This document shows positions 8,000-60,000 of a DNA stretch of 64,000 nucleotides, one piece after another. The stretch comes from Cordylochernes scorpioides. Taxonomy: Eukaryota; Arthropoda; Arachnida; Pseudoscorpiones; Chernetidae. Position 1 is the first letter of the stretch. Every line of letters starts with the position of its first letter. The position numbers and the translations under genes are program-made. The notes beneath the pieces are model-generated. The model was not told the origin of the DNA and made no database searches. It was given only the letters and a program-made list of their open reading frames with translations. The stretch covers positions 61,680,393 to 61,744,392 of the forward strand of contig CP092863.1 in the NCBI GenBank assembly GCA_030710605.1, written 5' to 3'.

Positions 8000-9218
8000 G
8001 GAAAAAACTTAGGTTTTAGTGGCCAGCCTATAGATTCATACATATGTCATGATACTGCTTTGGTAAATCTATATGTCTATTAATACTATTATTGCTAATG
8101 GATAAAATTGCTTCTAAAACTAATCTTTGGTATTTGTTGTTGATATTGGAATATAGGGTGGTAGGGGAGGATAAATTGAAGGAGTGGCCAGTGATGTTGA
8201 TGTGGTTAAATATAAGAGATCTATTATCTTTATTGGAGATGCATCTACCGTGCTCAGTCATCCTGGTGGCCACAGATCTACCAGTCTCGCCTATGTAGGA
8301 AGCATTGCAATCGTTACACGAGACTGAGTAGACCGAGCCACCAGAAGACTGAACAACGGCAGATCTGTGTAGGCGGGTGATAGGGTGTCTAAGAATGGTA
8401 CCTATACTTTTGTTATTAGAAAAATATGTATTGATTCCGTGTGATCTGAGGATGCGGGAGATGGAGACTGATTGAGGGGAGAAGGGCAAAAAACAGATGT
8501 TTCTACTGACTGTAGTGGGTTTAACGGAAAGTGGGATACTTATGTATAAAATGGGGAGGATATTGGGAGAGGGCTAGCTGTTTTATGATTTTAGATAATT
8601 ATATTGATCTGAATATGGGAAGGGAGCAATGGGTAACCAATCTCTTGGTAAGAGTTCTAACTGTGTTAATTTTATGTGCTAGAGGGCATGAAGAATTGAA
8701 ATTTGTGTAAAAAGTGGGATTATTGATCTTGTGGTAGACAGTAGTGTGGTAATGGGAGGGGGTGCGTATAATAAGTATATCAAGGAACGGCAAAACAGAA
8801 TTAACTTCAGATTATAAACTAAATGTAACTTCCGGGTGAAAAGAGTTAAGACAAGCTAAAATACTTACTTCCTGTCCGGTGTCACATATGCAGAAGATAT
8901 CATCAATGTATCTCCGCCACATGTGAATGCCCGGGGTGAATTGTTGTTGGATCCAGTGGTCAGTGGTGGCCATGACAATTTCTGCGAGGGGTGAGGATAG
9001 AGGGCTGCCCATGGGAGAGTCCCTAATTTGTTTGTAAAAAAGGTTATTAAAGGTGAACGTGGTGAAATCTAAGCATAGAGAGGATAGTGCCACTATGGAA
9101 TCAATGGTTTGAGAATCTATATGGTTATCCTGCAAAAATTTTGTTAACTGATTAATAATGAGCTGGTGGGGGAGGGAGAGATACATGGAATTTACATCGA
9201 ATGATGTTTGATATGTTA

Positions 9219-43007: not shown

Positions 43008-44620
43008 GTGGAGATAAGAAAAAAGAAGAATAATGTTTTTATAATTAATTTTAGAAACAATATTATTGTGCCCGTAGAAGAAATTAAAATTCTTGGAATT
43101 ACGATTGCGAATTATAGATGGAAAAACAAATTGAATTTTGGCCCTCACCTTAACATTATACTAAACAAAATCCAAAGATTGAAAAACCTTCTTTTTCCAA
43201 TATGTGGAAAATCTTGGGGTCTTAGCACCCAAAAAAGGCTTACACTTTATAAATCTATAATAAGACCAACGTTAACTTACGGAACAGAAATATGGTTTGA
43301 ATTTATTAGCAAAAAATATATGTACAAACTGAACTCAATGCAATATCAAATTCTGCTATGGTGTACCTGTAGCGGTTCCCAAATATTAACCTATCATATT
43401 TTCATTATAAGTTTTAATTTGTTTAATAACTATTTGATTCAAATATTAAATTAAAATATTCATCTTATAAATGTATAATGCTCATAAAATATACTTTATT
43501 AAAATTATATAAATTAACATTAATATCACATTATTTGTTGTCATAATAATATAATAAAATAATTATACATCATTCTAAATATAAATCATAAATCATGTAT
43601 AAAATATAAATATTTATATATAATATATCAAACACATATATTTTAAAATTTCATAATATTAAAATGTTATTTGACCACGACAGACAAAAACAAAAGAACG
43701 TCAACATGTATACAACAATTTAACCCCTTCTGATAATTTGTATTAGATAAATGTAATTAAAAGTTGATTTTACGAAAAATAATTTGTTTTTGGACTCCGT
43801 TTGGAATTACAAACCAACCAGCAACATACCCAAACATATAAAACAACCAGTTACAACTGTGTTCACACCTTAGCCAATATTCCTTTGATCACTGATTATA
43901 TGGAATCTAGAATTATAGGTTGTCGCATACCTCGCGACATTTGCATGATATTGATTTGTTTTGTATATTTTTACATTCTTTCTTTTAAAAGATGGTAGAT
44001 TTGCATATCCGCGAGAAGCGCGATATCTATATATAGGTCAAAGGATTAATAAAGTTAGAGTTTCTATTGTCATAGATCTTCTCATTGTTCTGCGGAACTC
44101 GTTCTTTTACTTAGAACACCACATAGGGTTTGAGTTGAATAATTTATCAACAGAAGATAAACAATTTTATGATTTGTATATTCCAGGTATACTCAAAGAT
44201 TTCATTATATCAAGGATTAATTTACTGAAAAAAAATACTAATCAAACATTTTAAAGTTTCTTTCCTTATGAAATTCCGAAATATTTTCGACCAAACTATT
44301 ATAATTCACAATTTATCACAGATCATGGAAATTTCAGGTTTTTTCTTAAGAAAATTCAGGCTGTGCAAGATTCGACAAGTTTCTGTGGATTGGGGGAACA
44401 AACTTTAATACATCTCTTGCTAGAGTGTCCTGTCTTTCGAAAATACAGAGTCAACAACGATTTGTTTGTTTGCTTTGTTTGTTCCTTCTGTACATACCCC
44501 TTTCCCCCCTTTCCCTTGCTGTTTTCGCCCTTGTTGCTGTTTGCCTGTGCTCCCTGCTCCCTTTGTAAATATTTCCCCCCTCCCTATTTATCTCATTGGT
44601 CACCTGGTTAAAAAAAAATA
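43008..44620 (+). pseudogene. Non-LTR retrotransposon 3' fragment
   Basis: A reverse transcriptase carboxyl part is open to about 43380: VEEIKILGITIANY, KIQRLKNLLFPICGKSWGLS and RLTLYKSIIRPTLTYGTEIW. These are typical of post-catalytic regions of Jockey/R1-type LINEs. Further pieces at about 43960-44460 end in a Cys/His pattern, CGLGEQTLIHLLLECPVF. An A-rich and (taa)n tail follows at 44610-44690. Catalytic motifs are absent, so it is 5' truncated and decayed. Confidence 0.7.
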
Positions 44621-44690
44621 ATTTTAATAATAATAATAATTATTATTATAATAATAACAATTTTAATTTAATAAAAAAAAAAAATTCCAG

Positions 44691-45054
44691 GAGCCTCTGA
44701 GCCTGAAAGTTGTACCTCCCCCCTTGTGCCCCACCCGGTCTTCTTCCAGCCCTCCTCTCAACCTGCCCGTTCACGGTTTGATCCTCGCCACTGCAAATTT
44801 GCCTTGGAGCAGACTTGCTTGGAGCCTGGCGTTGTACTTGGTGCTTCCTTGGTGCCCTCTCTAACCGCGCTCTCGCCCTCTTCTTCCCCGGGGTGCTCAC
44901 TCGCCCTGCCTGCGCCTCTCCACCCCTCTCCTTGGCTTCCACTGCAGCGGGCGCTTGGTGACACCTAACCATGAGTCCTGCCTTAGAATGCTTGACCGAA
45001 AGCATGTAGAAGGCATAATAATAGAGTAGCTTTAGGCCCTAGTGATTTAATTTC
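44691..45054. other. GC-rich unassigned segment
   Basis: A markedly GC-rich block (44700-44960, ccccttgtgccccacccgg and similar) in AT-rich surroundings. Open frames on both strands are low complexity and match nothing I know. It may be a retroelement 5' UTR. The full-length LINE inserted at its right edge. Confidence 0.35.
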
Positions 45055-45249
45055 AAGTAAGGATACATAAGATTCCCCGCTAGGTGGCCAACCGAAGAGG
45101 CAGCAGGTAACTACGGCTCCCGTTAAGTATTTCATTTTTCTTGATATTTTTAGTTTTTTTTCCTTCTGCTGAGTTACTCTAGTTCTTGTACAGGGAAAGA
45201 GGAAATTTATCTTTTATTTCTCGGAAGAAAAGAGTGTGGAAAGGGAAAG

Positions 45250-46182
45250 ATGAATATAGGCCTAATATATACATGTATCTTATTTTTATGCATCACTTAT
45301 CATGTAAATGAGCGCGTTGGCTGGGTTATGCAAATTGATTTTATCGATGAAAATGATGCAAATTGCGAAAGGCTGACTGCTTTAGATCAAGTGAAAAAAT
45401 TTGGGCTCTCTATACGTTTTCGTTATAGCAAATCAAATTTGAGAATTATAATACTAGCATTGTTATTGATCTCGGGTATCGAGAGTAACCCAGGCCCTAA
45501 AGTTACCAGACAAACAACTCTAGAAACGCCTATGGAGAAAGACCTAAAATAACTGATTGCGGCACTTTCTTTTAAAATGGATGATTGGGGCTCAAAACTC
45601 GAATCTAGGCTATCTGCGATTGAACTAGGGATGCAGAAATTTGATACTCGTGTACAGCAGCTTGAATCTTCTCTGAAATTAACTGCGAGCGCCGTTGAAG
45701 TGAATGTCAAAAAGATTAGAGAACTTGAGAGTCGAGTTAGTTTTATGGAGATGAAAAACAGAGAGAAGAACTTGATTTTTTACGGTATGGAAGGTAATGG
45801 AAGTGAAAATCCTGATGAATCCCGCGCCAAAATAAAAAGTTTGATAAAGGACAAGATGCAGATCTCGGATGAGATCGTTATTTCCAGGTGCAGGAGGTTA
45901 TCCAAAAAGGATAAAGCCCCAATGCTGCTAGAGGTTCCAGAATACAGCGAGAGATTAAAGATATTTAAAAATTCATTTAAATTAAGGGATTTGAAGATCT
46001 TTGTAAGCAAGGACTACTCTCCCAGTACTAGAGAACAACGCCGACTGTTGATTCCTAAATGGAAAGAATTCTTAAACAAAGGAATCACGGCAAAACTTAG
46101 GGATGATAAACTGATTGTCAATGGAACAGTTTATCAGGTTTTCAATGGTAAAATTACCACCAAGGAGGGTGCGGAGTTATAG
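45250..46182 (+). pseudogene. LINE amino-terminal region: 2A-like peptide and ORF1-like domain
   Basis: ATG at 45250. A hydrophobic stretch (NLRIIILALLLI) leads into SGIESNPGP (codons 75-83). The match is to the 2A ribosome-skipping consensus D(V/I)ExNPGP, with Gly replacing the first Asp. An in-frame TAA (45550-45552) follows. The same frame then runs from 45577 through a coiled coil (ESRLSAIELGMQKFDTRVQQ) and an L1-ORF1-type RRM (EKNLIFYGMEG, then RCRRLSKKDKAPMLLEV) to TAG at 46180-46182. The frame continues into the endonuclease. The original was therefore probably one polyprotein. Confidence 0.75.
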
Positions 46183-49100
46183 CAACTGGATGAAAATACA
46201 AACAAAAGGCAAACTACTGTAAATAGACAGTCTTGTTTTTCGTTCAAAGACGACACACAAGTGCTGTGTTGGAATGTTAATGGTTTGGAAAGGATGTTGC
46301 TGCAATTCGACCTATTCACACATTTAGAAAAGTGCAGCATTTTTGCACTCACAGAAACATGGAAGGATCAACATATGAAGATTAAATCAAAAGGATTTCA
46401 TCTGTATGAATCACTTGCTCAGAGAGACCACAAGAAGGGTAGATCATCGGGGGGAATTATTGTTAGGATTCGAGAAGCTATAAAAGACAAGATTGAAAGG
46501 ACTGAAATTGAAAAACAATGGATTATGATCTGTCTGTGGTTGGACGGTGAAATGCGAGTGTGTATGATCTTTGCTTACTTGCCACCAAACGAACACTATT
46601 TGACCAACTGCAAAAATTTACTCGACCAAATAGAAGGGAAAATAGTTGAAGGATATGAAGTTTTTACTGGCTGGTGACTTGAATACACGAACGGGTGCAT
46701 TGGGAATTCTTCATAATACATCACATCTTCCTTGCTACTTAACTACTAGACGCACTTCTAAAGATCCTGTAATATCTACGCATTCAGAACAATTCATAGA
46801 TAGATTGGATAATAATACTCTTACAATTTTGAACGGCAGAACAAGGGGGTGACAGAAGTGGTAACTACACATATATATCAGCACGGGGATCCTCGGTGGT
46901 AGATTACTGTATTGTCTCCCATGGGCTGTTAGGTTACGTACATGACCTATACATCGAGGGATTACCACACTCAGATCACTTACCTCTAATTATAAAAATG
47001 GATATGAGTTGGGGACCGAAACAAGTGACGAACCCGACTTCACGGGTCAAGAAAAAATATATTTGGTTACCCGAAAGAGTAACGCTATTTGTAGAGGACT
47101 TAGGAGGAGCTTATGGATTTTGGAATAACTCGATTGAGAATATAATGAACAACATGGTTAATCAGATTAAAAGCGCAATGGTACAAAATGGTATGCAAAT
47201 TGAAATAAAAGCGAATAACTTACTGTCGAAGCCTTGGTTTGATCATGAGTGTTACATGGCGAAAAAGATTATGAAAGCAACTCTGACAAAATATATTAAA
47301 TCTAATAGGGATCTAGATCGTTGGGAATATGTTAAAACAAGGAACAAATATACATCGATTATGAACAATAAAAAGAAAAAATATTTTTGTGAAATACAAG
47401 AAAAATTAAATAATACATACGATTCAAGTGAATTCTGGAAAACAATAGCTCGCTTCAGAAAAAGAAACTATACACAGGGCAATATCTCAATATCAGACTG
47501 GCAGCAATTTTACAATAAACTCCTGGATACAGAATCAATACCAGATTACGAACCCATTACTATGACTTTCCTAAATACAGATAATGAGCTAACTAAATGC
47601 ATAACTCTTAATGAAATAAGCAAAGAAATTTCTCGAATAAGGCATGGCAAGGCGACTGGTTTTGACGACATAATGAATGAAGCAATAAAGGCCCTCCCAA
47701 AAGATTATCTAATTTCCTTAAAGGATATATTTAATAGAATTTTGAGAACGTCTGAATTTCCGACAACATGGTTGAAATCAGTTATTCAACCAATTTTTAA
47801 GAATGGTGATCCAGACGACCCCTCTAATTATCGAGGCATTGCGCTCTTAAGCAATATAGCAAAATTATTTACATCAATACTCAAATCTCGTCTAGGCAGT
47901 TGGATTGAAAGGAGAAATATAGTTCCTGAGAACCAGGCGGGATTCAGGGCTGCCCACTCTTGTCAAGACCATATATTCACTCTATTATGCCTGATTCAAA
48001 TGACTCTAAGCCGAAAGAGAAGAAAATGCTACATGTTCTTCGTGGATTTGAAAAAAGCCTTCGACACAGTGCCCCACTCATTATTATGGAGAAAACTGGT
48101 AGATGCAGGTCTCAACCACCGTTTTGTTAACTTAATTAAAGATTATTACACAAATGTGACAGCGGTAGTGCGATGGAATAATTCATTCACTGAGCCAATA
48201 AAGGTGCGTTCGGGAGTTTTACAAGGGGAGAGCCGATGTCACCTTATTTATTTATACTTTTTATAAATGATTTAATCGGTCTCTACAATAATTCAGATTT
48301 ACCGGGAATATATCTCCCAAACTATGGATATGTTCATATTCTACTATACGCAGATGATATTGTCTTGATTGGAGAATCCAAAAACAACCATCAAATAAAA
48401 ATCAATATGCTAAGAAAATATTTTGAAACAAATTTATTAACCCTGAATGAAAATAAGTCAAAAATTGTAGTTTTCAGAAACGGCGGTCGATTAGCACAAA
48501 ATGACAAATGGTTTTGGGGTGAGAGGCAACTGTCTGTTACTACGAAATATCTATACTTGGGATATCCGCTTACAAGTGCAAATTCACTAAACAAGGTAGC
48601 GTCACACTACAAGGGCAAAGCCCTGGCAGCAATTGGCGCTGTGTGGCAAGTTCTGACAAAATCAAAGATGAACTCTCTAAATGCGGCAATGAGATTACTT
48701 GATTCGACGGTCTTACCTCACATGCTATACGCCGCACCCTGCTGGGCACTCAACCAAGTAAAGGTAGTTGATCAGGTTCAGAATATTTTCCTAAGACGCT
48801 ACCTAAATTTACCAAAGTATACTCCGGGCTTTATGCTAAGAATGGAGTGTGGACGAGTATCACAGGAAGTTATTATAACTAAACAGGTCCTGAGATTTTG
48901 GGTGAGGATTATGAAAATGGAAGAGAGTAGGTTGCCCCGGGCATGTTTGTCACACCTCTGGACATTACACAGCAATCAAAGGGCTGGTTTAACCTTTGTC
49001 GAAAACCTGTCAACCATTTTAGACTCAAACGGTTTTTCGTTCCTGAAGGGTTGTCCGGATTACGCTGCAATAATGACTGAAATCCCTGATATTATTCGAA

Positions 49101-49591
49101 TAGCAACCGAACAAAGCATCCAAAACGACATGGCGAAAATCCTAAATACTTCACATTACAGTCACTTCAAATACCTAAAAAATTAAATAACAGCAGAACG
49201 ATATTTATTCACAACTATTCCTCTAGCAATTAAAAGATTTTTTGCACAACTGAGACTCCTTTGGACGATCTTCCCAGAAAATCGTTCAAATCGCTGGAAA
49301 ATTGATTTGACTCTAACTTGCGATCTATGTAAAAACAGAATCCAAGACGAAATTATACATATAATATTTGGATGCTCTTGCTTAGAGAAACAGAGGAAAG
49401 AAATTTTGGGTGACTTACCCTGGTCTCAACCTGACTGCCAACAAATTTGCAGCTGGATGAACACACTGATGGTTGATCAGGGTCTCTCCCTCGGTTTATA
49501 TAAATTCTACAAGGCCGCAGTCAATGTCCGTTGGAGAACAATGGATGTGCCGAATGTCGTGGTTTGCTTGGAGGAAGAAAACGAAGATTGA
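46183..49591 (+). pseudogene. LINE endonuclease and reverse transcriptase, frameshifted
   Basis: The endonuclease has VLCWNVNGLE, FALTETWK, RSSGGIIV, FLLAGDLNTR, SSVVDYCIVS and PHSDHLPL, with single-base frame breaks near 46660 and 46850. The reverse transcriptase begins near 47600 with ATGFDDIMNE, QPIFKNGDPDDPSNYRGIAL, FRAAHSCQDH and MFFVDLKKAFDTV (motif A). At SGVLQGE a two-base insertion near 48230 shifts the frame to MSPYLFILFINDL, then LLYADDIVLI (motif C). The frame has TAA at 49184-49186 and resumes to LTCDLCKNRIQDEIIHIIFG, a zinc-type end, stopping at 49591. By gene order this is a CR1/Jockey-group LINE; exact clade not settled. Confidence 0.85.
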
Positions 49592-50015
49592 ATGCGGCTG
49601 ATTCAACACTAGCCCTCTCAATGATATCCTAATTTTGACATATTTTAAACATTGATACTTTAATTTAAATATTTAATCATGTATGGTTTCTTTTGCTCTG
49701 TATGTTTATTTTTTGTATATATGGTTGTATTTATTTTTGTTTGTTTTTTTTTCTTTCTTCTCGCTTTTCTTTTTCCTTATTACTTCCTGAATTCTAGTTT
49801 TTACTTTCGAAATATCTTCCTTTGCTAAATCTTGTAGAGGGGAATCATGTATAGGGCTGGATGCCCCAATAAAAAGGCTTGTGTGTGTGTGTGAAGTAAG
49901 GATACATATATAAAATTTAATTTCCTTTGTATAGAATGAAAAAACCCTGTACAATTTATAAACGAATACAATAAAGCATCAAGGGCTGCGAATCTTTATT
50001 AAAACGACAATTTAC

Positions 50016-50046
50016 GAGCTTTCGAGCACATACGCCCTTCTACAGG
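50016..50046 (-). ncRNA. Hammerhead-like stem-loop, left PLE end
   Basis: The minus strand reads cctgtagaagggcgtatgtg followed by ctcgaaagctcg: CUGUAGA, a GGGC/GCUC helix, then GAAA. The same degenerate core (U for A at the fourth position) is seen in the PLE at 7553-7580. The mirror copy is at 54697-54727. Confidence 0.4.
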
Positions 50047-50306
50047 AATTAATAACACAATAATAATCCAACCTAGTTTGAAATATAATTTATATACATA
50101 TAGCTATTGTTTTGCATATCTGCTTAACTAGAATAATATTAAAATGATTGAATTTACATGTAGGTATAATAATTTGGAAAACTAATTCTAAAATATATGA
50201 GGTAATATGATACATTAAAGTAAACTTATTTTGTATTTTACAAATTTTACAACTTACAAGGAATCCCATTAGACATGTGATATCATATGCTATGAATGAA
50301 TTTGTA

Positions 50307-52379
50307 TTATCTTATTGTATTTAAGTCTATTGAATTGTATGCTTCTGGTAAATCTATTTTGCGATTTATACTATTGTATTGCTTGGACACTATTGCTTCA
50401 ATTATTAATCTTTGATATTTGTTACTGATATTGTTGTAATGTGCTTTAGGTTCATTTAAGTTGAATGTATGTCCTGTTGAATTAGAGTGCTGTACTATTA
50501 AAGATAAAGGGTCATTTCTGTTTATATTTCTTCTGTGCTCAATGATTCTATTATATAATTTTCTTCCGGTCTCCCCCACATATCTGGCATTACAGTTATT
50601 GCATTGTATGGAATAAATTACTTCTTTTCTGTGTGATATGTGTTCGGTTTGCCTGTTTTTTGTTATCGGGTTTCTTAAGATATCTGATAGGCTGGGTGAG
50701 TTACTATAAAAGGTTTTTATTCCAAATTTATCTAATGTTCTGGAAATATGGATAGATTTCGGGGAATATGGAATGTAACAATTTTGCCTGTATATTTTAG
50801 TTTTTTGTGCTATCATGTTAGATGTGACCTGTTCCTGATAGAAATGTTTTAATATAAATGTTTTAGGGTAACCAGCTGAAGATAAATTCTGGATAACTGT
50901 CTGTGTTTCATGATTTTTGTATAGATTTAGTGAACAATGAGTATAAATTCTTTTAGTCAAAGTTTTCACTGTGTTAATTTTATGACTGATGGGGCAAAAT
51001 GAAGAAAACTTTATATAATTAGGGGTGAAAGTAGGTTTGTAATAAACTGTAGTTTGTAATCTATTATCTATTTTCATTATTTTAATATCTAAAAATGGCA
51101 ATGTGCAATTATTTTCTTTTTCTATTGTAAAGTGTAAGCTATTGTTGTAATTGTTGAGAGAGGCTAAGATGTTGGAAATCTGTTTTTCGGTACAAATGCA
51201 AAATATGTCATCTATATATCGTCTGTATAATATGATATCTGCCGGGTATAATGAAGTGATCCATAAATCTAATTCTCTCATTACTATTTCGGCTAATGGA
51301 GTTGACAATGGGCTTCCCATAGGAGAACCCTTAATTTGTTTATACTGTTTCTGGTCAAATGTGAAAATGTTAACTCTAAGACATAATGTGATTAAACCTA
51401 TTATTTTATCTATTGTATTAGGGTCTATCTTATTGTTATCCAAAAAGGTTTTAGTAGTTTTAAGTATTAAGCCGTGGGGGAGACTGGGGTATAAGGCCTC
51501 TACATCGAATGATACCAAAATATGTTCTCTTTGATAATTGTAATTGGCTATTTCTGTGATGAATGTTGGAATATTGGCTATTGACATTGGAAATACGCTA
51601 TTCTTAATTAATGACTGTAAAAATATTGTAACATACCTGGCTATTGGTGCTAGTGGTGAGCTGTGATAGGCTACTATTGGTCTTAATGGGATCCCTTGCT
51701 TATGAACCTTGGGTTTTCCATATATGTAACTCTCAGAGTCTAAATTAGACATGAATAATTTAAATTCATCGTTTGATATCATATTGCTTTTGGCCATTCT
51801 GTTTATTTCTTTTTTGAAGTATGAGTATTCTCGTTTCTTGTTAATTTCATCAACTATTGTAAATATGGTTCTGTCCTCTAATATGTTGTTCATTTTGTTT
51901 ATATAATCAGATTTGTCCATCACAACAGTCATCCCTCCTTTGTCTGCACTCGTGATGATTATATCTTGTCTATTTTTGAGATCATTTAAGGCTGCTTTAT
52001 CTCTGTGGTTATTTGGCGGCATTTTGTTTGGTTCTTTTAAAATGTTTATTACAGTATTTCTAATGGTATTCTTATCGTAGTTATTGAGCTTACCGATGGC
52101 TGCTTCTATTCCACTAATTATTTTGACGGTCTGTGGTTTGCCTATTGGTCTATGTTTTAATCCTTTAGATAATATGTTGACTTCATCTTTGCTTAACACT
52201 GTCTTGGAGAGGTTGATCACATTAACTGCATCATCTTTTCTACTTATAGCTGGGAAATCATATTTGCGCATCCAAAATTCTATCTTGTTGTTATGCCTTT
52301 TTTCTAATTTTTCTTTTAATACTGCTATTTTTGCGTTAATGTTTACTATGATATCATTAAGATAACAGCAACCAATCAC
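50307..52379 (-). CDS. PLE reverse transcriptase/GIY-YIG endonuclease, left arm
   Basis: An open frame of 690 codons; the first 15 or so codons lie in or next to the central spacer, so the true start is lost. It is identical to the right-arm protein from MRKYDFPAISRK onward. Motifs, numbered as in the right arm, are GKPKVHKQGIPLRPIV (about 183), VSFDVEALYPSLP (252), KGSPMGSPLSTPLAE (313), RRYIDDIFCIC (349), LPFLDIKI (390), then GIY-YIG with IYSIQCNNCN and YVGETGR (551-567) and RIIEHRRN. No stops or frameshifts. It could encode active protein if transcribed, but lacks its natural amino end. Confidence 0.9.
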   Translation of the reverse strand: MIGCCYLNDIIVNINAKIAVLKEKLEKRHNNKIEFWMRKYDFPAISRKDDAVNVINLSKTVLSKDEVNILSKGLKHRPIGKPQTVKIISGIEAAIGKLNNYDKNTIRNTVINILKEPNKMPPNNHRDKAALNDLKNRQDIIITSADKGGMTVVMDKSDYINKMNNILEDRTIFTIVDEINKKREYSYFKKEINRMAKSNMISNDEFKLFMSNLDSESYIYGKPKVHKQGIPLRPIVAYHSSPLAPIARYVTIFLQSLIKNSVFPMSIANIPTFITEIANYNYQREHILVSFDVEALYPSLPHGLILKTTKTFLDNNKIDPNTIDKIIGLITLCLRVNIFTFDQKQYKQIKGSPMGSPLSTPLAEIVMRELDLWITSLYPADIILYRRYIDDIFCICTEKQISNILASLNNYNNSLHFTIEKENNCTLPFLDIKIMKIDNRLQTTVYYKPTFTPNYIKFSSFCPISHKINTVKTLTKRIYTHCSLNLYKNHETQTVIQNLSSAGYPKTFILKHFYQEQVTSNMIAQKTKIYRQNCYIPYSPKSIHISRTLDKFGIKTFYSNSPSLSDILRNPITKNRQTEHISHRKEVIYSIQCNNCNARYVGETGRKLYNRIIEHRRNINRNDPLSLIVQHSNSTGHTFNLNEPKAHYNNISNKYQRLIIEAIVSKQYNSINRKIDLPEAYNSIDLNTIR

Positions 52380-52380
52380 A
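52363..52380. other. Centre of PLE palindrome
   Basis: An 18-bp non-palindromic spacer, taacagcaaccaatcaca, between the two 5'-truncated arms. Confidence 0.9.
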
Positions 52381-52471
52381 TCTTAATGATATCATAGTAA
52401 ACATTAACGCAAAAATAGCAGTATTAAAAGAAAAATTAGAAAAAAGGCATAACAACAAGATAGAATTTTGG

Positions 52472-54436
52472 ATGCGCAAATATGATTTCCCAGCTATAAG
52501 TAGAAAAGATGATGCAGTTAATGTGATCAACCTCTCCAAGACAGTGTTAAGCAAAGATGAAGTCAACATATTATCTAAAGGATTAAAACATAGACCAATA
52601 GGCAAACCACAGACCGTCAAAATAATTAGTGGAATAGAAGCAGCCATCGGTAAGCTCAATAACTACGATAAGAATACCATTAGAAATACTGTAATAAACA
52701 TTTTAAAAGAACCAAACAAAATGCCGCCAAATAACCACAGAGATAAAGCAGCCTTAAATGATCTCAAAAATAGACAAGATATAATCATCACGAGTGCAGA
52801 CAAAGGAGGGATGACTGTTGTGATGGACAAATCTGATTATATAAACAAAATGAACAACATATTAGAGGACAGAACCATATTTACAATAGTTGATGAAATT
52901 AACAAGAAACGAGAATACTCATACTTCAAAAAAGAAATAAACAGAATGGCCAAAAGCAATATGATATCAAACGATGAATTTAAATTATTCATGTCTAATT
53001 TAGACTCTGAGAGTTACATATATGGAAAACCCAAGGTTCATAAGCAAGGGATCCCATTAAGACCAATAGTAGCCTATCACAGCTCACCACTAGCACCAAT
53101 AGCCAGGTATGTTACAATATTTTTACAGTCATTAATTAAGAATAGCGTATTTCCAATGTCAATAGCCAATATTCCAACATTCATCACAGAAATAGCCAAT
53201 TACAATTATCAAAGAGAACATATTTTGGTATCATTCGATGTAGAGGCCTTATACCCCAGTCTCCCCCACGGCTTAATACTTAAAACTACTAAAACCTTTT
53301 TGGATAACAATAAGATAGACCCTAATACAATAGATAAAATAATAGGTTTAATCACATTATGTCTTAGAGTTAACATTTTCACATTTGACCAGAAACAGTA
53401 TAAACAAATTAAGGGTTCTCCTATGGGAAGCCCATTGTCAACTCCATTAGCCGAAATAGTAATGAGAGAATTAGATTTATGGATCACTTCATTATACCCG
53501 GCAGATATCATATTATACAGACGATATATAGATGACATATTTTGCATTTGTACCGAAAAACAGATTTCCAACATCTTAGCCTCTCTCAACAATTACAACA
53601 ATAGCTTACACTTTACAATAGAAAAAGAAAATAATTGCACATTGCCATTTTTAGATATTAAAATAATGAAAATAGATAATAGATTACAAACTACAGTTTA
53701 CTACAAACCTACTTTCACCCCTAATTATATAAAGTTTTCTTCATTTTGCCCCATCAGTCATAAAATTAACACAGTGAAAACTTTGACTAAAAGAATTTAT
53801 ACTCATTGTTCACTAAATCTATACAAAAATCATGAAACACAGACAGTTATCCAGAATTTATCTTCAGCTGGTTACCCTAAAACATTTATATTAAAACATT
53901 TCTATCAGGAACAGGTCACATCTAACATGATAGCACAAAAAACTAAAATATACAGGCAAAATTGTTACATTCCATATTCCCCGAAATCTATCCATATTTC
54001 CAGAACATTAGATAAATTTGGAATAAAAACCTTTTATAGTAACTCACCCAGCCTATCAGATATCTTAAGAAACCCGATAACAAAAAACAGGCAAACCGAA
54101 CACATATCACACAGAAAAGAAGTAATTTATTCCATACAATGCAATAACTGTAATGCCAGATATGTGGGGGAGACCGGAAGAAAATTATATAATAGAATCA
54201 TTGAGCACAGAAGAAATATAAACAGAAATGACCCTTTATCTTTAATAGTACAGCACTCTAATTCAACAGGACATACATTCAACTTAAATGAACCTAAAGC
54301 ACATTACAACAATATCAGTAACAAATATCAAAGATTAATAATTGAAGCAATAGTGTCCAAGCAATACAATAGTATAAATCGCAAAATAGATTTACCAGAA
54401 GCATACAATTCAATAGACTTAAATACAATAAGATAA
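52472..54436 (+). CDS. PLE reverse transcriptase/GIY-YIG endonuclease, right arm
   Basis: A 654-codon frame from MRKYDF; the open frame extends further upstream to the palindrome centre, as in the left arm. The catalytic set is complete: motif A Asp in VSFDVEAL, motif C Asp pair in YIDDIF, and the GIY-YIG nuclease with GETGR and a Glu in RIIEHRR. PLE proteins commonly exceed 700 residues, so the amino-terminal 50-150 residues are probably missing. Stop TAA follows TIR at 54434-54436. Confidence 0.9.
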   Translation: MRKYDFPAISRKDDAVNVINLSKTVLSKDEVNILSKGLKHRPIGKPQTVKIISGIEAAIGKLNNYDKNTIRNTVINILKEPNKMPPNNHRDKAALNDLKNRQDIIITSADKGGMTVVMDKSDYINKMNNILEDRTIFTIVDEINKKREYSYFKKEINRMAKSNMISNDEFKLFMSNLDSESYIYGKPKVHKQGIPLRPIVAYHSSPLAPIARYVTIFLQSLIKNSVFPMSIANIPTFITEIANYNYQREHILVSFDVEALYPSLPHGLILKTTKTFLDNNKIDPNTIDKIIGLITLCLRVNIFTFDQKQYKQIKGSPMGSPLSTPLAEIVMRELDLWITSLYPADIILYRRYIDDIFCICTEKQISNILASLNNYNNSLHFTIEKENNCTLPFLDIKIMKIDNRLQTTVYYKPTFTPNYIKFSSFCPISHKINTVKTLTKRIYTHCSLNLYKNHETQTVIQNLSSAGYPKTFILKHFYQEQVTSNMIAQKTKIYRQNCYIPYSPKSIHISRTLDKFGIKTFYSNSPSLSDILRNPITKNRQTEHISHRKEVIYSIQCNNCNARYVGETGRKLYNRIIEHRRNINRNDPLSLIVQHSNSTGHTFNLNEPKAHYNNISNKYQRLIIEAIVSKQYNSINRKIDLPEAYNSIDLNTIR

Positions 54437-54696
54437 TACAAATTCATTCATAGCATATGATATCACATGTCTAATGGGATTCCTTGTAAGTTGTAAAATT
54501 TGTAAAATACAAAATAAGTTTACTTTAATGTATCATATTACCTCATATATTTTAGAATTAGTTTTCCAAATTATTATACCTACATGTAAATTCAATCATT
54601 TTAATATTATTCTAGTTAAGCAGATATGCAAAACAATAGCTATATGTATATAAATTATATTTCAAACTAGGTTGGATTATTATTGTGTTATTAATT

Positions 54697-54727
54697 CCTG
54701 TAGAAGGGCGTATGTGCTCGAAAGCTC
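54697..54727 (+). ncRNA. Hammerhead-like stem-loop, right PLE end
   Basis: Exact mirror of 50016-50046 on plus. It lies 260 bp after the stop, in the 3' region of the right arm. Confidence 0.4.
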
Positions 54728-54800
54728 GTAAATTGTCGTTTTAATAAAGATTCGCAGCCCTTGATGCTTTATTGTATTCGTTTATATAATTTCCTTTGTA

Positions 54801-55200
54801 AATATATTTTGGATTTCATTGAGAAAAATGGTCTCTGATGTAACGATCTCAAGGAAATATTGGACATATCTTGTGGTTGTAAACTATATATAGGTGTATG
54901 CGTGTATATGTGTGTATATATGTATATATTTTTTAATTTAATGTTGTAACTGTAAATAAAATTCAAAGAATATCTCTATATGTAAATAATATTTATGAAT
55001 CTTTCTAAGTTACTTTCTGTGTATCTTCCCATGTTGAATATTTTCTTTGTTATATTTGTATGTACATTTAGCGCAAGTGTCCCTAGGGGGACATAGCGTT
55101 TTGAATTGAAATAAATAAATAAATGTTTGATTAATCTTCTTGGAAACAGTATTTTAAAGATTCTAAGCAAACTCAACAATTTCCTTGTCACGAAAAAATA
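54801..55200. other. No recognisable feature
   Basis: AT-rich, with a short (gtgtatat) repeat at about 54897-54930. Confidence 0.4.
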
Positions 55201-56619
55201 CACTGCGTGACATTGAAAATGGAACACCTAGAAATAGTGGCCAGAAAATTATGCAAATTTCAGGGTAGACGCGCCTAACCGAGTTATGCAAATGATGTAA
55301 AATGCGCAGCTCTCGTGCGCACATGGAGTAAGATATAAGGGAAGGAACTTGCAGAAAGGACAGTATTCGTGTCGTTATTTCTTCAAGGAAAATCATTGTA
55401 GAAATTTTGTTCTTGTGTCAAAAGACACGTGTAATAACAGAGAATGCCAGGTCATCGTAAACGGAGGCAGTTCAAGCAGACAGACGCTTTTACGAGGGGC
55501 ATGGTGATCGGACTGAAAAGGGCAGGTTGGTCCATACGTCAAATCGCAGCTGATACACACCTTGGTGCATCCACGGTGCACCGACTGTGGAGAAGATGGT
55601 TGGAACAAGGAAATGTGGCAATTTATAGGAATGCCGGTGCAACCTGAGTGACGTCAGCACGTGTGGATCGGCGTATCCTTCGACAAGCAGTGGCGGCCCC
55701 ACAAGCCACTTGTACCGCCATCCTGCAACATGTGCAAGACACCCTAGATCATTCCATCTCGACCAGAACCATTTCCCGTCGATTGGTTGCTAATGGCTTG
55801 CAATCATGCCGTCCGCTAAGAAGACTACCATTGACCCCACCGAATAGGCGCTAACGTTTGGAATGGTGCCGGGCTAGATCGACGTGGATGACGGAATGGT
55901 ACAGGGTCGTGTTCTCAGATGAGTCGCTTTTCTGCTTGTCCAGTGATAGTCGCCGTGTACGCGTGTGGCGTCGACGTGGAGAAAGGTCCAATCCGGCAGC
56001 AATTGTGGAACGCCCCACCGTGCGACAACGTGGAATCATGGTTTGGGGCGCAATCGCGTATGATTCCAGGTCACCTTTACTTCGTATTCAGGGCAATATG
56101 ACGGCCCAACGATACGTTGATGATGTGCTGCGACCGGTGACACTCCCCTACCTTCAGGGGGTACCCAATGCCCTTTATCAGCAGGATAACGCCCGACCGC
56201 ACACTGCTCGCATTAGCCAACAAGCTCTGCAAGATGTACAGATGCTTCCCTGGCCACCGTACTCTCCTGATCTCTCACCAATCGAGCACGTCTGGGACAT
56301 CATTGGACGCCGTTTGCATGCCTTGCCACAGCCGCGTTCAGAAGACGAACTGTGGCAAATGGTTGAGAGGGAATGGAGAGCCATCCTTCAGGACGCTATC
56401 CGTACTCTGATTGACTCTCTACCTAGACGTGTTGCTGCGTGCATCGCCGTCCGCGGTGGTCCTACTTGCTACTAAGCCGACGCCGTTCTCGCTCTGTATT
56501 ATGACTATCATTTTGAAATAAAGATCACTTATTGTTCGTCCCTGTCTCTCTCTGTCTGCCGAGTTTCATCACTTTCTGGCCACTATTTCTTGGTGTTCCA
56601 TTTTCAATGTCACGCAGTG
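55201..56619 (+). mobile_element. Tc1-like transposon, complete ends
   Basis: 1419 bp flanked by TA. The terminal inverted repeat starts cactgcgtgacattgaaaat and continues to gtggccagaaa, 47 bp with a single mismatch between ends. The transposase is one frame with two nonsense codons. aataaa lies at 56517. Confidence 0.9.
55444..56475 (+). pseudogene. Tc1-like DD34E transposase with two nonsense codons
   Basis: One frame of 343 codons. A paired-type helix-turn-helix (FTRGMVIGLKRAGWSIRQIA, then ASTVHRLWRRWLEQG) is followed by a second DNA-binding helix region (TISRRLVANGL). The catalytic triad is VFSDESLF (Asp), YQQDNARPHTA (Asp) and SPDLSPIEHVWD (Glu). TGA at 55645-55647 and TAA at 55852-55854 break it; both fit single substitutions of Arg or similar codons. 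No frameshift, so inactivation is recent or was mild. Confidence 0.9.
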
Positions 56620-56621
56620 TA

Positions 56622-56895
56622 TATTCGTAGTTTCTTTCTTCTTGCAGGAAGGAAAGAGTTTTCTCTCTGTTGAAATAGAAAAATCTCTCCTCTTCACAAT
56701 ATTATCAATTTATACTCAATAAAAAATATCATTTGCCTGGTTTTTATCTTTATAGTTTATCATGTAATTTTCTAAGTAAATTTAAAAACTATATATTTAA
56801 TGACCACGATAACCATGTCAATGTGTTGTTATGACTTAATGTAGTAGGTGTTTAAATAAAATTAAGATATGACTCGAGATTATTTGCTAGTGGAG
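56622..56895. other. No recognisable feature
   Basis: Intergenic AT-rich sequence between the Tc1 element and the 3' end of lipocalin gene 2. Confidence 0.4.
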
Positions 56896-56901
56896 TTTAT
56901 T
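56896..56901 (-). promoter_or_regulatory. Poly(A) signal of lipocalin gene 2
   Basis: AATAAA on minus, 13 nt after the stop codon. Confidence 0.65.
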
Positions 56902-56914
56902 TGTACGTCTCTCC

Positions 56915-57072
56915 TTAGCGGGGAAGTCTGTCGCAGTTTTCGAAGGAGATCTTCTCCAGCTCCTTGACGGGCAGGTCCTTGGACTTGGCCTTGAGTTCGG
57001 AAGCGATCTTCTGGTAGTCCTTCTCAGAGAAATCGTGGAACTTATCCTCGTGAATCAGCACACGCAGTTGGG
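56915..57072 (-). CDS. Lipocalin gene 2, exon 5
   Basis: Acceptor tgtgttccag. Two bases then 51 codons, QLRVLIHEDKFHDFSEKDYQ to FENCDRLPR, stop TAA at 56917-56915. It is three codons off the left gene and one off gene 1 in length. The Lys-rich helix differs most. Confidence 0.85.
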
Positions 57073-60000
57073 CTGGAACACACGGGTGTCATCTCTACTT
57101 GAACTGGTTTATATTCAAATCATCTTTAATCAGTTGACACAACCTCCTTGCCATATTATGTTTAAAATAATATGAGAAAATGTTCTTTTCTCAAGACCTT
57201 ATATTACATTGTATATAGAGAGAAAATAGAGGTAATCCGGGCGTCTTGAGCATAAATCGCCAACTACCCGATACATTGTATATATCCAGGGGATAATCAA
57301 TAGAACAAGAAAAACGAGAATTTTCTAAGAAAATTGTTTCATTAAAATTCAGACTTGTAGTTTGTAACAATTGACAGATATTTATTGATTCTAAAACCAC
57401 ATTAAATAAATATATTTTCAATGATACAGCGTTAATATTTTATGATAAAATATTTTTGTGAAAAGTAAATACAAATTTTTATATTCTAATTACTTTTCAT
57501 TGCTCAGAACAAGGTTATTTTATATCGTTGATGATTCAAAGATATACATTATAACGACAGTGTATGAAATATCATTATCATAGAAGATATGAGTGAATAT
57601 ATTCCAGCATAGATGTATAACAGAATGATAATACACTAAAATTTGTTGAACTCGTTTAGATAAATCTTTTTTTATTTGCGATTGAACGTTGTGGCCCACT
57701 GTACATATTACATCCCAAACACGATGTGACGCCAGCCATCTCTGTCTTGAGCTCGATGTACCGATTCGGCGACCGTTAAGCCAGTGAGTTCCTTTAATTG
57801 GTTTATGATAAAAATGGAGTATAAACCCAATACTATAGTAAGAGGAAGTAAAGACTTACCGGCATAGAGGAGGGGCCTCTCAGTGCAGGCCCACAGGACC
57901 ATGTGAGACTTGGGCTCATATTCCACAAGCTTGTACTTGATGGTGAGAAGAGTAGGATCTACACATAATTTGGGTCATCATTCCACGATGGAATAAAACC
58001 ACACAAATATAATTATAAGACAACTGAAGAGGTAAAGAAGTATATTTGCATTGCAGCTTGTCTGATTTCTACATTATATTTGGGCTCAAAATGATACACT
58101 TTGGTTAGTAATCCGTAAACCCATATACTCTCTAAAGAAGTATTCCTATACTTTATATGTTTAGCATATAAAATTTCATTATTTACAGTTATAATTACAA
58201 CAAAAGTTGTGAGGATGATGATATTCATATATTGAAAGAGGTACCTGTCCCTTTATTTGTTTATCAAAACAATATACTTTGCAGCACCCTAATAAAAAAA
58301 AACTTTACTAGTAATGAAAAATTTGCCAAAACAGGTGTTGTGGCTCATTACTTTTCATCACTAGTGAAGGTTTCTATCGTTGATGATTCAATGTTACCAA
58401 TAATATTGGTGGATGGAAATTTTGCCGGGAGGAAATTAATCCATGGAAGCAATGGTCGCCTCTCCCGTCAAAATAAACGTCAGAATCTGACGCCATTGAT
58501 TTGGCCCAGCCATATTGCCAGCAAAACACCTCTTTGGTAGATTGTGAGGATTCCATTAGATCCCGTGTGGATCTCATGGAATAAAGTCCGCCCTAGGCTG
58601 ACGAGGGCCATTAGCCCGAAACCATGGTCTCTAGGTGGACGCTTATCATTTTGCCAACGTTGGTGTTGTGGCTTTGTCACCGACCCGATGCCGCTAGTTG
58701 CGGCGACGGTCAATAGATGGCGTCAGATTCTGACGTTTATTTTGACGGGAGAGGCGACCATTGCTTCCATGGAATATTGGTGGAGTATGAAATATCAGAA
58801 TCATAGAGGATATGGATGTATCTATTCCAGCATAGATGTAAAGAAGCATGAAAACACAACAATGGGTGATGTCAATATGGAGTATAGAGTAGTATAGAAA
58901 GCTTGAAAGGGTTTTATTAGAGTGATGCAAAGTGCATCATTTCGATGCACAAATGAAGAGAGACTTACTTCTTTAGGCATACAGATATAATTGTTAGTGA
59001 TGATGAATTTTGTTTACTATATAATATTTCATTATAAGAGAATAGTTTTCTATATGTTATATATCATATACAAGCCAAAATACTCGGCTTTGCCCAGTTT
59101 TTATCTGATTCAACATTTTCCTAATAAATTTTGATTATATATATTTTATATATAAAAATAATTAGATTTTCTGCTTGAATTTTAGATCATGTTGAGGATT
59201 ATGTTAATGCAGTCGTTGTAAAATCTTGAAATAATTTGATCAGTAAATTTTTTAATTGAGCTAAAGGAATGTATAAAAACATAATTTTATAAAAGTAATG
59301 CCTGGCTTAAGGCAATCAAAAAATGAAAAGATTATTTACATTATGTACTAAAGTTTTGAGCCGGCCATTGGGATAAAACAACAACGAGTTTTTAAAGGAG
59401 AAGAGTGACCTCTGGCGGTCGATTTAGCAGAGTATTTGAATATATTAATATAATTTAAAATAAAATAATATTTTTATATAACATACATATATAAAAATAA
59501 TTATATATTGCCACGTGGAAAATTAGGGTAGATAAACTTCAGGAAGAGACAGCAATTTATTTAAGGCAAGAACAAACTATGAAGGATAAACAAAAAATAA
59601 GGAAAGAGGGACGTTTACAGAGTAGCAAAATATAAACATAAAAAAATGATACTCTGTTAATACTAGTGTTAAATAATAAATACTTCACTATAATATATAT
59701 ACATATATGTAGCTTATATATATAGCTTTCAGATCAAATTTCTCCTGGAAAATTTTCCATCTATATATATACATATATTATAAATAAAAATATTTTTTGC
59801 TCTTGAGGATTATGCTAGAGTGATTCAGTCGTGGTTAAAATTAAATGAAATTATTTATCAAAAATAGCTTTAATTGAGTTTATGGGATATATAAAACATA
59901 ATTTGTAAAAGTTCTGCCTGGCTTAAGGCGATTAGAACAAGGAAAACAAAATATTATTTACATAATGTAAAAAGATTTGAGCCGGCCATCGGAGAACAAC

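Follow-up and report, generated by a model that had tools for sequence, protein, structure and literature searches.

How Penelope-like elements (PLEs) integrate is an open question, and biochemistry published in 2024 (PMC11167929) leaves the later steps unvalidated. The protein of the element described there, Poseidon of Anolis carolinensis (PAc), is a predicted dimer that cleaves and extends both target strands in vitro, and the PAc tail is the stretch between two reverse transcriptase (RT) start sites; the same paper reports a hammerhead ribozyme near the unit junction for PLEs. For the endonuclease-bearing Penelopes of the rotifer Adineta vaga, PMC3846280 describes palindromic junctions and copies that stand head to head, with an optional tail at one of the inverted ends, and proposes antisense self-priming. 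Inverted pLTRs and 3' extensions are also named in PMC8969392. Head-to-head copies with an optional one-sided tail have already been published (PMC3846280). Here we analyze a window (the whole stretch of 64,000 nt studied) from Cordylochernes scorpioides that holds such a pair, together with its relatives elsewhere in the genome. New, within the scope of one family in one genome, are the finding of exactly one tail per insertion and the common template of the two arms. Our literature search, outside which lay most subscription papers, including older Penelope work, turned up no report that the one-tail rule is invariable or that the dimers originate by two-sided priming.

Architecture of the window insertion

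As ruler we used one real 2751-nt tandem unit from locus L025, which sets the unit nt numbering given here. The insertion and its parts are as follows:

49918..49931, no strand: left copy of the 14-bp target-site duplication (TSD), a repeat with a single copy in the empty site
49932..49956, minus strand: tail, unit nt 1-25, or 1-27 if the 2 nt that overlap the TSD are counted, left arm only, from unit comparison
49957..52363, minus strand: left arm, unit nt 345-2751, 3' end outward, from unit comparison
50307..52379, minus strand: ORF of 690 aa, reverse transcriptase with a GIY-YIG-like C terminus, native N terminus missing
51042 (mirror position 53701), minus strand: sole arm-arm mismatch, A versus G, from the alignment of the arms
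52363..52364, no strand: head-to-head junction, blunt, without microhomology, from junction analysis
52364..52379, plus strand: 16 nt of element sequence in the right arm only, the middle of what was earlier an 18-bp "spacer"
52364..54786, plus strand: right arm, unit nt 329-2751, 3' end outward, without tail, from unit comparison
52472..54436, plus strand: ORF of 654 aa, right-arm counterpart of the 690-aa protein, likewise without its native N terminus
54787..54800, no strand: right copy of the 14-bp TSD

Alignment of 49957-52362 with the reverse complement of 52381-54786 pairs two stretches of 2406 nt with 1 mismatch, so that the arm length given in the first-pass annotation stands and its failure to find any difference is amended by one base (51042). 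A repeat search stretches the match to 2407 nt, with 16 nt in between. Because the arms begin at unit nt 345 and 329, the 18-bp spacer proposed between them is in fact element sequence of the longer right arm, and the two truncation points lie 16 nt apart. The outer ends are unequal as well: the left-arm tail (25-27 nt) equals the start of the next unit, and the right arm is without any. The window palindrome is confirmed as real, and its description as two PLE copies, head to head, 5'-truncated at the centre and inserted as one unit with a TSD, was borne out; with the first in-frame ORF ATG at unit nt 44, both arms lack some 100 N-terminal codons.

Family assignment follows from several features canonical for endonuclease-bearing PLEs, namely an RT domain, tandem units, a 3' tail of ~30 nt on some ends, and a short TSD in an AT-rich target. 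The Pfam RVT_1 matches in the two ORFs lie above the cut-off (E 1.6e-9 and 7e-10), and 2751-nt units stand head to tail, in the tandem or pseudo-LTR arrangement, at several loci (L025, L012 and L020). The predicted GIY-YIG C terminus is only suggestive: PF01541 matches there with E 0.003 and 18.3 bits, below its cut-off of 22.6, and a poor single-sequence model of the endonuclease part (pLDDT 58) yielded no fold match at E <= 0.001, and none of the matches shown was to a GIY-YIG protein. A search of solved structures returned a retron RT only (E 0.0015). For a hammerhead, which is not known to define all PLEs, no Rfam family was found at E <= 1 over 49900-54900; by eye we noticed a degenerate hammerhead-like CTGTAGA...GAAA motif. 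The element 3' end folds no better than shuffled sequences (z 0.75).

The 14-mer TAATTTCCTTTGTA occurs on the plus strand of the 64-kb window at 49918 and 54787 only, and its reverse complement has no occurrence in the window, in agreement with the earlier statement that a 14-bp direct repeat brackets the whole unit and not each arm. When the flanks are joined with one TSD copy, they match C1:61648787-61649348 over all 562 nt at 99%, and the 96 bp around the join are identical (96/96) with one 14-mer copy; the empty site that had been put forward as a check was thus found, in a near-identical duplicate 81 kb upstream. The surroundings of the insertion have a second copy at this site, with window 44000-46500 matching at 99% and 56500-58500 in part only at 92-96%, so the empty site looks like a paralogous duplicate. 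Among the 40 matches listed for the joined flanks, one is the window's own right flank and 38 more cross the join, covering query 245-562 (one 245-561) at 97%, so that the target is itself a high-copy repeat. The window insertion is clean and single.

Head-to-head copies and their tails across the genome

A 35-place pattern for the element 3' end found 740 sites at no more than 1 mismatch, a large natural experiment in integration. The first 100 listed of these 740 fall into 61 groups, comprising 32 "-+", 1 "--+", 1 "-++", 24 single, 2 "++" and 1 "--"; 34 of the 61 are head to head and none is tail to tail. Head-to-head dimers are ordinary for this Penelope family. The sequences of 33 head-to-head groups were read, namely the window, L018 and L040-L070, which amount to a survey of 32 insertions with L061 and L062 counted once; the 34th, at C1:166612512, where the tail pattern matches the right end only, is outside the sample. 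Nine further insertions from a first, length-biased set (L010-L013, L019, L021, L022, L027 and L028) bring those with both outer ends visible to 41. From this tail count we excluded L009, L017 and L026, which have one arm, and L014, L015, L016, L020, L023, L024 and L025, of which an outer end lies beyond the fetched stretch. For the 27 groups in which the pattern shows no head-to-head arrangement, 15 ends were read over 141-166 nt, C1:5396009 lies within L009, and 11 were left out. L061 and L062 (C2, 210 kb apart) are one inverted insertion with its flanks in opposite orientations, an inverted segmental duplication.

Exactly one arm is tailed in all 41 insertions. A script recount of the 32 survey insertions gave 0 tails in none, 1 tail in 32 and 2 tails in none, and if tails were independent at one half the probability of 41/41 would be 5e-13. 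By eye, no facing tail pairs within 9 kb were seen among the first 100 listed of 296 tail sites. On our own reading 8 of the 15 apparently single ends carry a tail, 7 of which the script flagged, the tail of L073 having one changed base; one of the 15, C1:49420530, has an oppositely facing tail-pattern site ~200 nt away, so some apparent singles are pairs. Very short inserts with arms of 39-151 nt (L042, L048-L050, L052-L054, L056 and L058) are near-perfect palindromes of the element 3' end, and these too have one tail each together with common flank words. The tail side is uneven, left in 12 and right in 29 of the 41 (binomial P 0.01).

The tailed arm is the longer in 17, the shorter in 15 and equal within 5 nt in 9 of the 41 insertions, so that arm length does not follow a hairpin loop. 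Two rules tried on these numbers found no support: that the second arm is copied from the first, with the tailed arm then the longer, and that one copy follows the other on a single RNA, with the tailed arm trailing and shorter.

In the survey, a word of 9 bp or longer is common to both flanks of 31 of 32 insertions, versus 9.6% of 552 mismatched flank pairs from different loci. By eye, the flanks of L055 share 7 bp, or 10 counting bases that also fit the element end, and the survey targets are AT-rich; some TSDs are simple AT repeats and as such weak evidence (e.g., L050, L057, L058 and L065). The single-arm loci L009, L017 and L026 have no TSD evident by eye, so that not every copy is two-sided now.

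Arm templates, arm lengths and central junctions

Mismatches between the two arms of a pair (42 loci) are private in 70 cases and common to other loci in 10, versus 1147 private and 1477 shared in 300 random cross-locus comparisons. Where the arms of independent pairs have 300 or more positions in common (27 pairs), their divergence is always below the between-locus median (27/27), and in 20 the arms are closer to each other than to the closest other locus; in the other 7 some other locus is as near to an arm as its partner arm is. Tandem units inside one insertion are mostly near-identical too, with exceptions such as L014, L019 and L026. This pattern of mismatches fits copying of both arms from a single RNA or from sister RNAs with a common source, and later gene conversion between the arms could add to their likeness.

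The central junctions carry marks of end joining. No insert is present in 35 of 47 junctions, whose mean microhomology (capped at 8) is 2.2 nt, versus 1.0 (0.99) for 290 no-insert junctions simulated via the same BLAST steps; the observed mean was reached in 0 of 20,000 resamples. A control based on exact matches, with a mean of 0.77, did not mirror the handling of the real junctions, and the excess persists with the BLAST-matched one. Inserts occur in 12/47 junctions versus 10/300 simulated (none over 3 nt), and filler of at least 5 nt in 8/47 versus 0/300; the filler of L067 repeats a nearby stretch.

Arm lengths correlate over the 32 survey pairs (rho 0.72), with rho 0.63 over the 19 pairs in which both arms are at least 160 nt and 0.40 (P 0.06) over the 23 in which either arm is. 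Nine of the 32 pairs are symmetric within 5 nt, where 0.65 would be expected; in eight of the nine the arms are shorter than 160 nt, and several lie at short palindromes. In the remaining 23 the length difference exceeds 5 nt and in some reaches ~2 kb or more. When both arms are at least 200 nt, 2 of 19 pairs agree within 20 nt, versus 0.56 expected (P 0.10), so the near-symmetry of the window needs no special cause. About ten long-arm 5' truncation points fall in unit nt 322-390 (the window, L010, L018, L020, L022, L027 and L069), a candidate stop site that is affected by the bias of the first locus set by query end.

Origin of the inverted pairs

Two-sided target-primed reverse transcription of an endonuclease-bearing type PLE is, with a probability of about 0.7, what made the window insertion. 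The evidence consists of sequence patterns from one genome and one family, from which we infer the cDNA intermediates. The element nuclease would cut both target strands some 9-16 nt apart, leaving 3' overhangs, and each target 3' end would prime one cDNA on element RNA, such that both element 3' ends come to face outward. The two end points are observed; in time, one cDNA would start at the far site and carry the tail, and the other would start ~27 nt nearer. The source sequence is common to both arms of an insertion, which points to one RNA or sister RNAs as the template. The cDNAs would then stop and, to judge from the junctions, their free ends would be joined through microhomology, by filler-type end joining or, as in the window, bluntly, and fill-in of the overhangs would yield the TSD. 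The two stops in the window lie only 16 nt apart, hence its look of a near-perfect palindrome. Two-sided target priming predicts this combination of two precise outer ends (one each), a surrounding TSD and end-joined centres, and the presence of one of each outer end per insertion is consistent with each target strand having been primed separately. Points against it are the window junction without microhomology and the 9/32 symmetric pairs, mostly short, which are also compatible with a hairpin. The 7/27 pairs with another locus as near to an arm as its partner, the three single-arm loci, the TSDs made of simple AT repeats and the uneven tail side weigh on the same side. The cause of the one-of-each pattern may be an asymmetric dimer, or the first cDNA hiding the near site. 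Tentatively, and at somewhat less than even odds, we consider an obligately asymmetric, two-headed PLE complex, by which one RNA would be copied twice from both cut strands with starts at two fixed sites ~27 nt apart, the tail being the mark of one fixed half and not optional.

Self-priming, in which the end of one cDNA (or of an antisense RNA) would loop back and prime the synthesis of an inverted dimer that then integrates, is proposed for rotifer Penelopes in PMC3846280 and would suit the common template of the arms, the 16-nt loop between the near-identical arms of the window and the symmetric pairs, several of them at short palindromes. A hairpin copied to its end should, however, put a tail on both ends, where each of the 41 insertions has one; its loop would be expected in the first arm, but the tailed arm is the longer in 17 and the shorter in 15; and the 23/32 pairs that differ in length bear end-joining marks. 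We therefore regard self-priming as unlikely. Improbable, too, is the capture, at a staggered cut, of an inverted dimer that had formed beforehand away from the chromosome: the one TSD that brackets the whole unit and the clean empty site agree with it, but a separate reason is needed for two precise outer ends, one each, which the two published RT start sites explain directly. The "already inverted dimer" of the first-pass annotation thus finds no support in the two different end points (41/41), nor does its suggestion of template switching to a second RNA, since direct repeats would be the product of a switch from one sense RNA to another.

The near-identity of the arms might also be expected of a one-armed insertion later duplicated in inverted form, or of two insertions at one site, which is very improbable given that the TSD surrounds the pair, not each arm, and that dozens of loci show this architecture with differing junctions. 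Near-perfect palindromes are a known class of assembly artefact, and yet a fold-back artefact is scarcely credible here, as the earlier reading of the locus had also held: the one-sided tail, the 16-nt asymmetry, the one base difference, the TSD, a separate empty locus, and the same architecture with other arm lengths at dozens of loci all speak against it.

Two-sided target priming resembles L1 twin priming, in which priming from both target 3' ends on element RNA results in an inversion. The L1 parts are non-overlapping pieces of one RNA, whereas here both arms start near the same 3' end and the shorter span is also present in the longer. The likeness of the Cordylochernes family to PAc extends to a tail lying between two RT starts, AT-rich targets, both strands cut and extended (in vitro for PAc, proposed here) and tandem units, but the main text of PMC11167929 describes no inverted product and no one-of-each rule, and the main RT start of PAc lies 111-118 bp into the ORF, whereas the Cordylochernes tail is upstream of the first in-frame ATG. 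Unlike in the proposal for Adineta vaga (PMC3846280), where the tail is called optional and self-priming is from an antisense template, the tail is on one end in each of our 41 insertions and the junctions resemble end joining of two cDNAs. The one-tail rule provides a sharp prediction for a bench test and disfavours the self-priming model.

Three further observations concern the surroundings. Two overlapping ORFs at 46896-49186, adjoining the insertion, were named by eye as like a non-LTR retrotransposon reverse transcriptase. The stretch 8045-8148 is 78% identical to unit nt 2275-2377 and is a probable old PLE relic. Sequence from window 56500-58500 and C1:61.65-62.16 Mb is repeated many times along half a megabase, in the manner of a tandem gene cluster.
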